Source: Alphaproteobacteria bacterium (GTDB lineage Bacteria > Pseudomonadota > Alphaproteobacteria > Bin65). From it: DNA of 64,000 bases. Made by a program: the position numbers and the translations under genes. Numbering within the stretch: the stretch's first letter is position 1; each line of letters starts with the position of its first letter. The notes under the pieces were generated by a model. The model ran no database searches. It was not told the DNA's origin and worked only from the letters and a program-made list of their open reading frames with translations. The stretch is from positions 62,001 to 126,000 of the forward strand of contig JAJFFJ010000040.1 in NCBI GenBank assembly GCA_021776685.1, in the 5' to 3' direction. This document shows, piece by piece, positions 2,238-16,618 of this stretch.

Positions 2238-2923
2238 TGCTGACCCCGGCGGAATGGCAGGCGGTCGGGCTCAGCCTGCAGGTGGCTGCGCTGGCGCTCG
2301 TCATCGTCTTGCCCCTCGCCGTGGCGGTCGCCTGGTTGCTCGCGCGGAAACGCTTTCCCGGCAAGGTGCTGGTCGATGCGCTGGTGCATCTGCCACTGGT
2401 GATGCCGCCGGTGGTGACCGGTTATCTGTTGCTTGTCCTGTTGGGCCGGCAGGGCGTGGTCGGTCAGTTCCTGGACGAAACCTTCGGCATCGTCTTTGCC
2501 TTCCGCTGGACCGGAGCCGCGGTGGCGGCCGGGGTAATGGCGCTGCCCCTGGTGGTGCGCCCCCTGCGCCTGGCCTTCGAATCCGTGGATCCGCGGCTGG
2601 AGCAGGCCGCCGCCACGTTGGGCGCAAGTCCGCTGCGCGTATTTCTCACCGTCACACTGCCGCTCGCCATGCCGGGGCTCATTGCCGGGGTGATTCTCGG
2701 CTTTGCCAAGAGTCTGGGCGAGTTTGGCGCCACCATCACCTTTGTCTCCAGCATCCCCGGCGAGACCCGCACCCTGTCGCTGGCGATCCAGACCCTGCTG
2801 GAAATACCCGGCCGGGAAGATGCGGCGCTGCGCCTGACGCTGATTGCGGTGGCGATATCGGTCGCGGCACTCGTGGCGTCTGAGTTAGTGGTCCGCAGGC
2901 TCCGGAGGGACGTCCATGCTTGA
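2237..2923 (+). CDS. modB: Molybdate ABC transporter permease
   Basis: This inner-membrane channel subunit of the molybdate importer has 228 residues and about five hydrophobic segments. The cytoplasmic EAA loop is visible as EQAAATLGASPLRVF followed by LPLAMPGLIAG (about residues 122-147), which docks on ModC. KSLGEFGATITFVSSIPGETRTL is typical of ModB. Translation starts at GTG 2237, sharing one base with the modA stop. The 3' end overlaps modC by 8 bases, so the three genes form one translationally coupled operon under the Mo-box. Confidence 0.95.
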   Translation: MLTPAEWQAVGLSLQVAALALVIVLPLAVAVAWLLARKRFPGKVLVDALVHLPLVMPPVVTGYLLLVLLGRQGVVGQFLDETFGIVFAFRWTGAAVAAGVMALPLVVRPLRLAFESVDPRLEQAAATLGASPLRVFLTVTLPLAMPGLIAGVILGFAKSLGEFGATITFVSSIPGETRTLSLAIQTLLEIPGREDAALRLTLIAVAISVAALVASELVVRRLRRDVHA

Positions 2924-4004
2924 GGTGGACATCCATCTTCGCCAGGGGGACTTCCGCCTGGATGCAGCGTTTGCCGGCAGCGACGGGGTGACGGCGCTGT
3001 TTGGCCGTTCCGGCGCGGGCAAGACGACCCTTCTGAACGCGATTGCCGGGCTCGTGCGGGTGGACAGCGGTGCGGTTACCGTCGACGGCGTGGCGCTTTA
3101 CGATTCTGTCCGCGGCATCGATCTGCCGGTCCATCGGCGGCGGGTGGGCTATGTCTTTCAGGACACCCGGCTGTTCCCGCATCTGACCGTTGCCCGCAAT
3201 ATGACCTATGGCGCCGGACGCCGGCCGGACCGGCAGGCGCTGGCGCATATGGCGTCGCTTCTGGATCTTGAGGCTCACCTGACCCGCCGTCCGGACAATC
3301 TTTCCGGCGGGGAACGTCAGCGGGTGGCCATCGGCAGGGCCATGCTTTCCCGCCCGCGTGTGCTGCTGATGGACGAACCGCTGACCGCCCTGGACGTCGC
3401 CCTCCGGGCGGAGATTCTGCCCTATATCGAGCGCCTTCGGGACGAAGCCGGCATCGCCATCGTCTATGTCAGCCACACGGTGGAGGAGGTCACGCGCCTG
3501 GCCGAACGGGTGGTGTTTCTGGATGCCGGGCAGGTGGCGGCGGCGGGCACTGTGGACGATGTCATGGGCCAGCCGGACCTGATGGCAGTGACCGGCCGGT
3601 CCGCCGGCGGCGCCATCCTGCAGGGCGTCATCGACGAGATCGATGCGGATGCCGGGCTTGCGCGCATTGCCATGCCTGGCGGGACTGTCTGGGCGCCGGA
3701 CGGCGGCTGGCCGCGCGGCACGACCGTGCGCCTGCGCCTGCGTGCCCGGGATGTGGCGCTGGCGCGGGCCGCGCCCCAAGGCACCTCCATTGCCAACGCG
3801 CTCCCAGCCACGGTGATGGCAATCGAGGCGGGGGAAGGTGCAGTTGTCACTGTGCGTCTCACCTTTGGTGCGCAGACAGTGCTGGCCCACCTCACACGGC
3901 CGGCAGTTGCCGCGCTCGAACTGGCCGAGGGGCATCAGGTCTGGGCGCTGGTGGATGCGGTGGCGCTGGATCCGCCTGTGCGGCTCAGCGGCGCCCCCGC
4001 TTGA
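2916..4004 (+). CDS. modC: Molybdate ABC transporter ATP-binding protein
   Basis: This is the ATPase of the molybdate importer, 362 residues. It shows Walker A GRSGAGKTTL (about residues 31-40), signature LSGGERQRVAIGRAM, Walker B VLLMDEPLTALD and the switch histidine in YVSHTVEEV. The C-terminal third (about 290-355) fits the MOP/TOBE domain that binds oxyanion and regulates ModC. It is convergent with the modE-type gene and overlaps its 3' end by 20 bp, so the whole molybdate cassette is compact. Confidence 0.96.
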   Translation: MLEVDIHLRQGDFRLDAAFAGSDGVTALFGRSGAGKTTLLNAIAGLVRVDSGAVTVDGVALYDSVRGIDLPVHRRRVGYVFQDTRLFPHLTVARNMTYGAGRRPDRQALAHMASLLDLEAHLTRRPDNLSGGERQRVAIGRAMLSRPRVLLMDEPLTALDVALRAEILPYIERLRDEAGIAIVYVSHTVEEVTRLAERVVFLDAGQVAAAGTVDDVMGQPDLMAVTGRSAGGAILQGVIDEIDADAGLARIAMPGGTVWAPDGGWPRGTTVRLRLRARDVALARAAPQGTSIANALPATVMAIEAGEGAVVTVRLTFGAQTVLAHLTRPAVAALELAEGHQVWALVDAVALDPPVRLSGAPA

Positions 4005-13054: not shown

Positions 13055-13117
13055 TCTGAATCATTTTAACTCAATGCTATCCAATCACGGACCGTTCACA
13101 TATAGTTGAATAAGGAA

Positions 13118-13186
13118 ACCGGCGGAGACAGGGGCAACGCCTCCGCCGGTCCTTCCTCCGCGGGGGCTCCCACCGGGAGCCCCCGC
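13118..13186 (-). terminator. Double hairpin after the bufferin operon
   Basis: Directly after the DoxX stop, a 12-bp perfect stem with a 3-base loop (arms 13160-13171 and 13175-13186, GCGGGGGCTCCC/GGGAGCCCCCGC) is followed by a 10-bp perfect stem (13118-13127 and 13141-13150). There is no long T-tract, so it may act as a transcript-stabilising or weak termination structure rather than a classic intrinsic terminator. Confidence 0.6.
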
Positions 13187-13199
13187 CGCCGAGGAACCT

Positions 13200-13712
13200 C
13201 TAACGCTTTTCGGTTCTTAGCAGCAGGTGATCGAGCGACAACCAGCCCGGTCCGCGCAGAACCAGCATGGCCGCCAACACGATCCACACATAGTGAATCA
13301 GGTTGGCGATGCCGTTTTCCTTACCCTGAGGGGTCTGGGCGGCGACCAACTCGATCACCAGCACCATGATCAGGATGCCCCCCGCGCCAAGGCGCCCAAA
13401 AATTCCGAACACCAATAATATAGGCAGAACCAGCTCGCCGACCATGGTCACAGGCGCAATAATGCTTCCCGGGAGGCCGGGCACCGGGTGGATATTGTCG
13501 AACAGGAAAATCTCGTTCGACCCCTTGCCGTCCAGCCAGGTCGTCAGCCGCGCCCAGCCCGACTTGAAAATGGTCCAGCCCAGGTAGATGCGGGCCGCCA
13601 GCAAGCCGATCGGGAACAGCCATTTGGTCACCCCGTCAGACAGATTGGCGTAAAGGCCGCGAATACCGCCTACGCTGCGATAGCCGTCGCCGGAGTCGAC
13701 TGCTTCATTCAT
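13200..13712 (-). CDS. DoxX-family membrane protein of the bufferin operon
   Basis: This 170-residue membrane protein of the DoxX family has four hydrophobic segments (about residues 33-50, 80-105, 110-128 and 138-156). Typical text is LLAARIYLGWTIFKSGWARL near the first helix and GELVLPILLVFGIFGRLGA in the middle. DoxX proteins commonly end bufferin and related MNIO operons, where they are proposed to act in the membrane with the copper-binding peptide. It starts 39 bp after bufC on the same strand and is followed by a strong hairpin. The precise role is unproven. Confidence 0.88.
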   Translation of the reverse strand: MNEAVDSGDGYRSVGGIRGLYANLSDGVTKWLFPIGLLAARIYLGWTIFKSGWARLTTWLDGKGSNEIFLFDNIHPVPGLPGSIIAPVTMVGELVLPILLVFGIFGRLGAGGILIMVLVIELVAAQTPQGKENGIANLIHYVWIVLAAMLVLRGPGWLSLDHLLLRTEKR

Positions 13713-13751
13713 TGTTTGGGTTCCTTCCCCGTATCGCTATCCGCTCCGGCA

Positions 13752-14492
13752 TCAGCCGTCGCGAAACACGCCCCATTCGAACAGCCGCACCAGTGCGCCC
13801 TGCAGGTCAAAATCTTCTTCTTCGGTTTGCGCAACCAGCGCCGCATCTCCCAGCGACTGGCCCGCAGCCAGCGCCGTAAACAACAGATAGCCGCCAGCAT
13901 CCACGTCCCAGGCGGCAACATCCAACTCGGGCCGCGTGACCAGCGCCTGATATCCGGTCTCCGTGACGTCAGCCAGGGTCTCCGCCGCCCAGATGGCGTG
14001 GATGGGATAAGCTGAGGCAATGGCGCGTGTCGCCGGATGGGGCGTGAATGTCAGCGCCAGCATTTCCTCGGGTGCTATTTCGCCCAGTGTTCCCGGGTCA
14101 AAGCGCGGCGCATCGGCTGCAAAGTAACTGTCGTGATAGGCCCATTCCAGACGGGCCAAATCCGGCAGCCATGGCAGGTTTTCACGCGCCGGCGCAAAGC
14201 CGTCGACAAATTCGGCAAACCCGCCGCCATAGAGATCGAGCCGCGGCCGGGCCGGTGGCTGCGACCGGACAAACGCGCCGGCGATGACAGCAAAATTCTC
14301 TTCGCCAACGTGACGTTGCATGGCCGGGAAGGTGTTTTCCAGCACCTCAGTCAATGAACCGACAATGTTGTTGGCATAGACTGCGATGCGATCTTCGGCG
14401 GCGATCTCGTCGGCGCGCACCAATTCAGCAGCGGCGGCAATCTCGCCCGCCAGCGCGCTGTCCCGGAATGCTGCCTCCAGTTCATGCAACAT
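13752..14492 (-). CDS. bufC: BufC-type DUF2063 protein, partner of the MNIO enzyme
   Basis: This 246-residue protein is of the HvfC/BufC (DUF2063) family. The N-terminal domain is clear: LAGEIAAAAELVRADEIAAE, then RIAVYANNIVGSLTEVLENTF, PAMQRHVGEENFAVIAGAFV, and WLPDLARLEWAYHDSYFA. In MNIO systems this protein works as a partner or recognition subunit that presents the precursor peptide to the oxidase. The start overlaps the 3' end of bufB by 11 bp, which implies translational coupling and a shared complex. Confidence 0.92.
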   Translation of the reverse strand: MLHELEAAFRDSALAGEIAAAAELVRADEIAAEDRIAVYANNIVGSLTEVLENTFPAMQRHVGEENFAVIAGAFVRSQPPARPRLDLYGGGFAEFVDGFAPARENLPWLPDLARLEWAYHDSYFAADAPRFDPGTLGEIAPEEMLALTFTPHPATRAIASAYPIHAIWAAETLADVTETGYQALVTRPELDVAAWDVDAGGYLLFTALAAGQSLGDAALVAQTEEEDFDLQGALVRLFEWGVFRDG

Positions 14493-15375
14493 GGGCGAGC
14501 TTCCCAGTGGCGGCCTGGTCCAGATGGTGTTGCGCGGTTTCGGCGACGGCGGTCAACACGCTCAGTTCTGGAATGTCGCCATCCCATTCCATCAACACCG
14601 GCGTTGCTCCCAGGTGGGCCAGGGCATGGTCGAGCAGGTCCCAGACCTGGTCGATTGGCGCGCTGCTGTGGTCGTCGATCAGGATGGTGGCGGCGCCCAT
14701 TTCCCGCCGGGCGTGGCCGGCAATGTGGATTTCCCCCACGGCGTCGGCCGGAATGGCGTCGATATAGGCAGTCGCGTCGAAGCCGTGATTGTGGCTGCTG
14801 ACAAAGATATTATTCACGTCCAGCAGGATGCCGCACCCCGTTCGCCGGGCGATCTCGGACATGAACACCCATTCCGGAATGGTCGAGGCGTGGAAGGTTA
14901 CATAGGAGGATGGATTTTCCACCAGCATGGGCCGGCCGAATGCTTCCTGCGCCTGATCCACATTGCGGCAGATCACGTCCAGGGCTTCTTCCGTGTAAGG
15001 CAAAGGCAGCAAGTCATTCAAATAAGTGCCGCCGGTGGTGGTCCAGGACACGTGGTCCGAGACCAGGCCGGGCTCAAAACGGTCAAACAAACTACGGAGT
15101 TGCGCCAAGTGGGTCTGATCGTGGCCGCCGACGGACCCAAGAGACAAGGCGACGCCATGGCAACTCAGCGGGTAGTCCTGGCGAATTGCTTCCAGTTGGC
15201 GCATCCGGGCGCCGCCTGCCGCGAGATAGTTCTCGCTGTGCACTTCAAGCCAGGCGATATCCGGTGTGTGCTCGATTATTTCAAGCACATGGGGATGCCG
15301 GAGGCCGATCCCCGCCTGGGCAGGGATCGGCAATTCGGCAAATGAACCGGAGGACTTTGCCCCGGTTTCGGTCAT
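14482..15375 (-). CDS. bufB: BufB-type multinuclear non-haem iron oxidase (MNIO, DUF692)
   Basis: This 297-residue TIM-barrel enzyme of the DUF692/MNIO family modifies cysteines of RiPP precursors using a cluster of iron ions. Likely ligand-bearing segments are GIGLRHPH, EVHSENYLA, SCHGVALSLGS, LVSDHVSW, LVENPSSYV, LLDVNNIFVSSHNHG, EIHIAGH and LMEWD. It lies between the precursor gene (23 bp upstream) and bufC (overlapping). In Caulobacter the homologous enzyme converts cysteines of bufferin to thiooxazole groups. The same chemistry is inferred here, not shown. Confidence 0.94.
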   Translation of the reverse strand: MTETGAKSSGSFAELPIPAQAGIGLRHPHVLEIIEHTPDIAWLEVHSENYLAAGGARMRQLEAIRQDYPLSCHGVALSLGSVGGHDQTHLAQLRSLFDRFEPGLVSDHVSWTTTGGTYLNDLLPLPYTEEALDVICRNVDQAQEAFGRPMLVENPSSYVTFHASTIPEWVFMSEIARRTGCGILLDVNNIFVSSHNHGFDATAYIDAIPADAVGEIHIAGHARREMGAATILIDDHSSAPIDQVWDLLDHALAHLGATPVLMEWDGDIPELSVLTAVAETAQHHLDQAATGKLAHVA

Positions 15376-15397
15376 TTTCCGCCCCTTGGTCCTTTGA

Positions 15398-15682
15398 CTA
15401 GGACTTCAGCGCCGGGTTGATGCCGTCGAACGCCTTGGTCTTGCCTTTGGCGCTGTTGCAGGCATTCGCGTCGGCAACCAGTTTCCAGTCGTTGCCGTCG
15501 TAAGAAACCTTGTTCTGGCCTTTGCAGGAATGGCCAGCTTTCTTGTTGGCGCAGTCATTCTCGCCCTTTTTGGAAATGCCATAGCACTTCACAGCGGCAT
15601 TGGCCGGAACGGTCGAGATTGCGAAGGCGCCAGCAACGGCAACCGCGAGGGCGGCAGTGGTCAGTTTGGTCTTCATGTTCAA
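15398..15682 (-). CDS. bufA: BufA-type (DUF2282) bufferin precursor peptide
   Basis: This 94-residue secreted peptide of the DUF2282 family is the probable RiPP precursor. A signal peptide (about residues 1-29, ending VPANA) is followed by VKCYGISKKGENDCANKKAG and a lysine-rich core with four cysteines at 33, 44, 53 and 75. The Cys-Tyr-Gly and Asn-Asp-Cys spacing is the family hallmark. In characterised bufferins, cysteines are modified by the MNIO enzyme and the peptide binds copper in the periplasm. It lacks the acidic residue usually before KC in the family (VKC instead of EKC). GGAGA lies before the start. Confidence 0.92.
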   Translation of the reverse strand: MNMKTKLTTAALAVAVAGAFAISTVPANAAVKCYGISKKGENDCANKKAGHSCKGQNKVSYDGNDWKLVADANACNSAKGKTKAFDGINPALKS

Positions 15683-15836
15683 TTCTCCTGAGTCATGGGC
15701 AGAACACCCGTGAGCGGTCAGTGCCCCTTCATTGAGGTGTTCACGGTATACATACGCACGCTGGATGATATTCCGGAATCAACTCCATTCACAAAAAAAT
15801 GAGCATGTCGCGTGCCCCGGAAGTCCCGAACAATTC
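15683..15836 (-). promoter_or_regulatory. Leader and promoter region of the bufferin operon
   Basis: This 154-bp gap between moaE and bufA must hold the operon's promoter unless transcription reads through from moaE. A perfect 10-bp palindrome ATTCCGGAAT sits at 15770-15779, about 90 bp upstream of the bufA start. I could not recognise a sure sigma-70 or ECF promoter. Confidence 0.4.
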
Positions 15837-16378: not shown

Positions 16379-16618
16379 ATGCGTGTTGTTTTGGTCGTCC
16401 TTGTCACCGCAATTACGCTTGGCGGTTGCGCCGCGAAAGAAGCGCCTTGGGTCCGCATGCGCGATGATGCCCAGTCGCTGAAAAGCGCCCGGTATTGGTG
16501 CACCACGCAACGGCGTGAGAAGTTTCATAGAATGCATCCCGACACCACCGGCCGCAAAAAAAGCATCGTGGTTAGCGATAAATGCATGAACAGCCGCGGC
16601 TGGCGCCGGGGAAAATAG
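16379..16618 (+). CDS. Small lipoprotein of unknown function
   Basis: This 79-residue predicted lipoprotein has a hydrophobic N-terminus and a lipobox LGGC with the lipidated cysteine at residue 17. The mature part is basic and holds two more cysteines and an aromatic stretch (ARYWCTTQRREKFH). A GGAG sits 8 bases before the ATG. It lies on the opposite strand between moaD and moaE, which are normally adjacent. I do not recognise a family. Its mature size is about 60 residues, so an envelope-anchored peptide role is likely. Confidence 0.7.
   Translation: MRVVLVVLVTAITLGGCAAKEAPWVRMRDDAQSLKSARYWCTTQRREKFHRMHPDTTGRKKSIVVSDKCMNSRGWRRGK

Follow-up and report, generated by a model that had tools for sequence, protein, structure and literature searches.

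Gene content and layout of the cluster

The window, a stretch of 64,000 nucleotides from an Alphaproteobacteria bacterium (GCA_021776685.1, contig JAJFFJ010000040.1), carries four genes in the order bufA-bufB-bufC-doxX between positions 13200 and 15676, all on the minus strand. The bufA gene (15398..15676) encodes a Buf1-type precursor of 92 aa, bufB (14482..15375) an MNIO (DUF692) bufferin maturase of 297 aa, bufC (13752..14492) a DUF2063 partner of 246 aa with a predicted C-terminal RRE-like domain, and doxX (13200..13712) a DoxX-family membrane protein of 170 aa. The bufA and bufB genes are separated by 22 bp and bufC and doxX by 39 bp, and the bufB and bufC genes overlap by 11 bp (14482-14492). 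The four genes, their order on one strand, and this overlap had all been reported in the preliminary description and were found again here. The start of bufA was placed at the ATG at position 15676, since it is preceded by a good ribosome-binding site (AGGAGAATTGAAC); position 15682 corresponds to an in-frame TTG located further upstream.

Two strong hairpins (13116..13186, minus strand; fold −70.9 kcal/mol, z −4.3) were found 3' of doxX, at 13160-13186 and about 13116-13153, between the convergent doxX and ilvE genes. They had been described as closing the operon and their strength was verified, but no clear T-run was seen in them and the terminator scan contained no entry for either hairpin. 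Even without a clear T-run, the pair is a probable terminator.

The BufB protein matched the NCBIfam model NF050167 (MNIO_BufB, "MNIO family bufferin maturase") with 371 bits, above the curated cut-off of 310, and the Pfam family MbnB_TglH_ChrH (PF05114) with 343 bits for a cut-off of 25, and aligned with the structure 3bww of the PDB (E 6e-36). Its score with the NCBIfam model of MbnB was 61 bits for a cut-off of 325. Conserved residues of BufB are H73, H108, E153, D186, N188, N189, H217, D234, H236, E263, and D265, among which N188/N189, D234, H236, and D265 were invariant in 19 aligned BufB sequences. The loss of N175, D242, or H244 abolishes the activity of HvfB (PMC13419390), and the loss of D249, the proposed base of FonB, abolishes modification (PMC13097082). 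D234, H236, and both Asn residues of the DVNN motif of BufB are the counterparts of HvfB D242, H244, and N175, the latter being mapped by eye, via the 3BWW alignment, to one of two Asn residues that are both invariant, and D265 is the counterpart of FonB D249. The loss of iron ligands from a BufB alignment had been named beforehand as an argument against a bufferin operon; the ligands were kept, and were invariant in the 19 sequences.

BufC matched DUF2063 over residues 17-96 (Pfam, 69.9 bits, cut-off 27.2). Its AlphaFold model (pLDDT 90) was matched by Foldseek to TglHI (8hi7, E 1.4e-6) and to 3dee, a solved DUF2063 partner (E 7.5e-5), and weakly to RRE proteins such as TbiB1, in keeping with a DUF2063 domain fused to an RRE-like domain. 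A sequence search for solved structures gave no meaningful match for BufA or BufC. DoxX was recognized by the Pfam family PF07681 (48.9 bits, cut-off 23.6), and a doxX gene recurs after bufC in most relatives.

The precursor, its relatives, and their distribution

BufA was assigned to DUF2282 by Pfam with 55 bits (cut-off 22.4) and contains exactly four cysteines (Cys31, 42, 51, and 73), which are invariant across 26 aligned precursors. As read from the sequence alone, it starts with a Sec signal peptide (MKTKLTTAALAVAVAGAFAISTVPANA) composed of a basic start, a hydrophobic stretch, and an Ala-Asn-Ala cleavage motif. No EGKCG repeats were found in the precursor sequence. The only precursor model of NCBIfam that matched was BufA2 (NF050166), with 36.4 bits, below the cut-off of 60, and the DUF2282 score was the lowest among the genomes listed in our surveys of the order and of the phylum. 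These two scores place BufA on the margin of the family as described so far.

The second and third cysteines of BufA enclose eight residues (C-ANKKAGHS-C), with His49 two positions before Cys51. We typed this loop in 44 Alphaproteobacterial precursors, including that of the window. Twenty-seven of them, the window's among them, are of a type (x8) with eight residues between Cys2 and Cys3, the last two being HS or HD, and most of these precursors have a ...PFxGxNP tail; the 17 others are of a type (x7) with an AAGPGTS/TT-like loop and mostly a GSLxxL tail. A tree of 19 BufB sequences showed two groups (support 99/100) that coincide exactly with the owners of x8 and x7 precursors. The phylum-wide sample contained further loops of type x6, and also x8 loops with a His.

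The preliminary description had pointed out that VKC replaces the usual EKC at the first cysteine. VKC is present and EK before Cys1 is dominant in the phylum-wide precursor sample, but the replacement is not unusual: the residues before Cys1 were EK in 21 of the 44 Alphaproteobacterial precursors, VK in 13, TK in four, FK in three, and others in three, and the subtype to which the window's precursor belongs has V, T, F, I, or E before Lys-Cys1. Little conservation around the cysteines has been reported in DUF2282 (PMC13097082). We therefore did not retain VKC as an anomaly, since it is ordinary in the precursors of this lineage and since Cys1 is reported in Buf1 as a disulfide cysteine that is not modified (PMC12452194).

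A DUF2282 gene and exactly one MNIO gene were found in every one of 11 genomes examined from the order, and the window's own genome has one of each. In the class, a BufA relative was found in 99 of 289 genomes, and in the phylum, DUF2282 in 63 of 299. The bufA-bufB-bufC order is kept at nearly all loci of the relatives examined. At two of these loci (L028, 8224-9072, and L038, 4876-5528), bufA genes lie in tandem ahead of one bufB gene. In another locus (G006:C30:109434-110228), an in-frame TAA interrupts bufB while the bufA and bufC frames are open, reflecting either an assembly error or decay.

The four-gene set is also annotated on public plasmid records, such as that of Azospirillum oryzae (NZ_CP054618.1), where the cluster HUE56_RS07245-07230 shows the same four gene families and the same order as the window, with a precursor 56% identical to BufA over 59 aa. 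This cluster differs from that of the window in being plasmid-borne, in being followed by a chemotaxis gene, and in having a peroxiredoxin-like gene (2650-3315 of locus L109) immediately ahead of bufA.

Upstream region and control of expression

A motif search in the regions upstream of 38 bufA genes revealed an element, TCACG-N4-CGTGA-N6-TGATT, that precedes many of these genes and is near-identical within one genus of the same family (g3). The copy in the window (TCATTTTTTTGTGAATGGAGTTGATTCC, 15775..15803, minus strand) is degenerate, and its inverted repeat is no better than expected by chance (p 0.5). The pooled signal of the element reached 229 for a shuffled maximum of 208, a post hoc comparison in which the motif was derived from the same sequences. 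The window's genome contains one copy. When the pattern was searched for in the 11 genomes examined from the order, the buf locus alone gave strong matches, the two others having three mismatches, and we rejected the idea that the element marks a wider regulon. It may be a regulator site or belong to the promoter region, and is given here as a lead only.

Control by sigma-F, as in Caulobacter, was likewise rejected for the window operon: NrsF was not found in the genome, and no GTAACC-N16-CGAA or GTAAC-type sigma-F site was present in the 180 bp upstream of bufA. In one relative, a second bufA-doxX locus without an MNIO gene was observed (G005:C74, 3063-6496), for which a maturation enzyme would need to act in trans. 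Next to this locus lie a DUF3179 gene and, in divergent orientation, sigF and nrsF, and it carries an exact GTAACC-N16-CGAA site.

Proposed function and alternative explanations

The bufferin core cluster has been defined as genes for a precursor, an MNIO, a DUF2063 protein, and a DoxX protein, with Buf1 precursors being DUF2282 proteins that have four cysteines and a Sec signal (PMC12452194). Every sequence-level item of this definition is present in the window, and the gene content, the gene order, the homologies, the catalytic residues, and the conservation in relatives fit a Buf1 cluster. The bufferin-type RiPP operon proposed in the preliminary description is well supported, with the profiles, the catalytic residues, the order of the genes, their recurrence in relatives, and the published definition all in agreement. 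The cluster adds one more case to a system that is already described and widespread, in its standard four-gene composition. We consider it very likely that the locus is a Buf1-type bufferin operon producing a thiooxazole-modified, exported, and copper-chelating peptide, its chemistry, export, and copper binding being those expected by analogy with characterized members of the family.

In Buf1, the central cysteines are modified and the two outer ones, including the first, pair as a disulfide (PMC12452194). By analogy, BufA would be synthesized with its Sec signal peptide and presented in the cytoplasm by BufC, with its DUF2063 and RRE-like domains, to the iron enzyme BufB. BufB would convert Cys42 and Cys51, the residues designated by alignment alone, into 5-thiooxazoles, with a loss of four hydrogens each. 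Export of the peptide would be followed by removal of the signal and formation of a Cys31-Cys73 disulfide, and the periplasmic peptide would chelate copper, and possibly other soft metals. DoxX would have a putative auxiliary role.

Among the closest known systems is Buf1 of Caulobacter vibrioides (CC3254-CC3257; PMC12452194, PMC3511200), which shares with the window the four-cysteine Sec-exported precursor, the MNIO, the DUF2063 partner, DoxX, and the gene order, but whose sigma-F/NrsF pair has no equivalent at the window locus. Compared to the relatives with a seven-residue loop, which served here as the reference in place of the Caulobacter precursor, BufA differs by its eight-residue loop, the His before Cys3, its tail (...KAFDGINPALKS), and a V instead of an E before Lys-Cys1. 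The oxazolin (HvfABC) and fontiphorin (FonABC) systems, captophorins that, like the window, combine an MNIO with a DUF2063/RRE partner, make copper-binding 5-thiooxazoles, but on precursors with EGKCG repeats instead of DUF2282 (PMC13097082). Methanobactin (MbnABC) also relies on an MNIO, a partner, and copper ligands derived from cysteines, but has a typical leader peptide and not a Sec signal, carries oxazolone/thioamide groups, and serves copper acquisition and not protection (PMC12452194).

An oxazolin/HvfA-type (EGKCG) or a Buf2-type cluster could be suspected instead of Buf1, as BufA2 was the sole precursor match in NCBIfam and Hvf models also matched BufB, BufC, and DoxX. However, BufA2 and all the Hvf models, including HvfC for BufC and HvfX for DoxX, stayed below their cut-offs, whereas DUF2282 and the bufferin maturase model exceeded theirs, and BufA has four cysteines and lacks the EGKCG repeats, Buf2 having 6 or 12 cysteines (PMC12452194), which makes such an assignment highly improbable. 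A less remote alternative, which we nevertheless regard as unlikely, is that the same type of modified peptide has its primary role with a different metal (cadmium, chromate, gold, or mercury) or with oxidative or sulfur stress, copper being secondary. DUF2282 operons of Caulobacter were found as sigma-F targets induced by chromate and cadmium (PMC3511200), gold-induced genes include bufferin clusters and MerC is fused to some precursors (PMC12452194), and the lack of NrsF implies that the Caulobacter control circuit is absent here. However, all characterized Buf1 and oxazolin/fontiphorin products bind copper (PMC12452194, PMC13097082), and nothing within the locus points to another metal.

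The surroundings of the Buf1-type operon raise the question of a link with molybdenum. The mobB, moeA, moaD, and moaE genes lie in this order 5' of bufA on the same strand, and the position of the operon after molybdenum-cofactor genes had already been described. On the far side of doxX are ilvE and a MarR gene. This gene order recurs in one sister genus (g4; locus L047), and its moa half was also seen in another locus (L041); moreover, the sigma-F regulon of Caulobacter holds both YedY, a molybdenum enzyme, and bufferin operons (PMC3511200). Copper buffering coupled to molybdenum-cofactor synthesis, with both gene blocks as one functional unit, is nevertheless very improbable: no moa genes were found near buf at the other loci compared, those of genus g3 of the same family and of more distant relatives, some of them on short contigs, the blocks are split in g4 by an oppositely oriented class II aldolase gene, and 160 bp separate moaE from bufA in the window. 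The copper-molybdenum link suggested earlier was therefore dropped as a general feature, and the adjacency, common only to the window and to g4, is inherited local synteny. The window also contains, on the plus strand between the moaE and moaD genes, a small lipoprotein-like ORF of 79 aa (16379-16618) with no Pfam match, and at the matching position in L041 lies a comparable ORF that contains a YWCTT motif.

In the Buf1 lineage of the window, an eight-residue loop with a conserved His two positions before Cys3 and a conserved ...PFKGxNPKK-like tail would go together with a separate BufB clade. An additional metal ligand could be provided by this His, resulting in a metal preference or a stoichiometry unlike that of the Caulobacter-type bufferin; we regard this reading as unlikely, and metal binding by the loop His is a speculation. 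As the two loop types track two BufB clades, they offer a simple experimental comparison of the function of the loop and of its His. With the window, the known range of bufferins extends to one more order of Alphaproteobacteria, in which they are well conserved; otherwise, known biology is confirmed.
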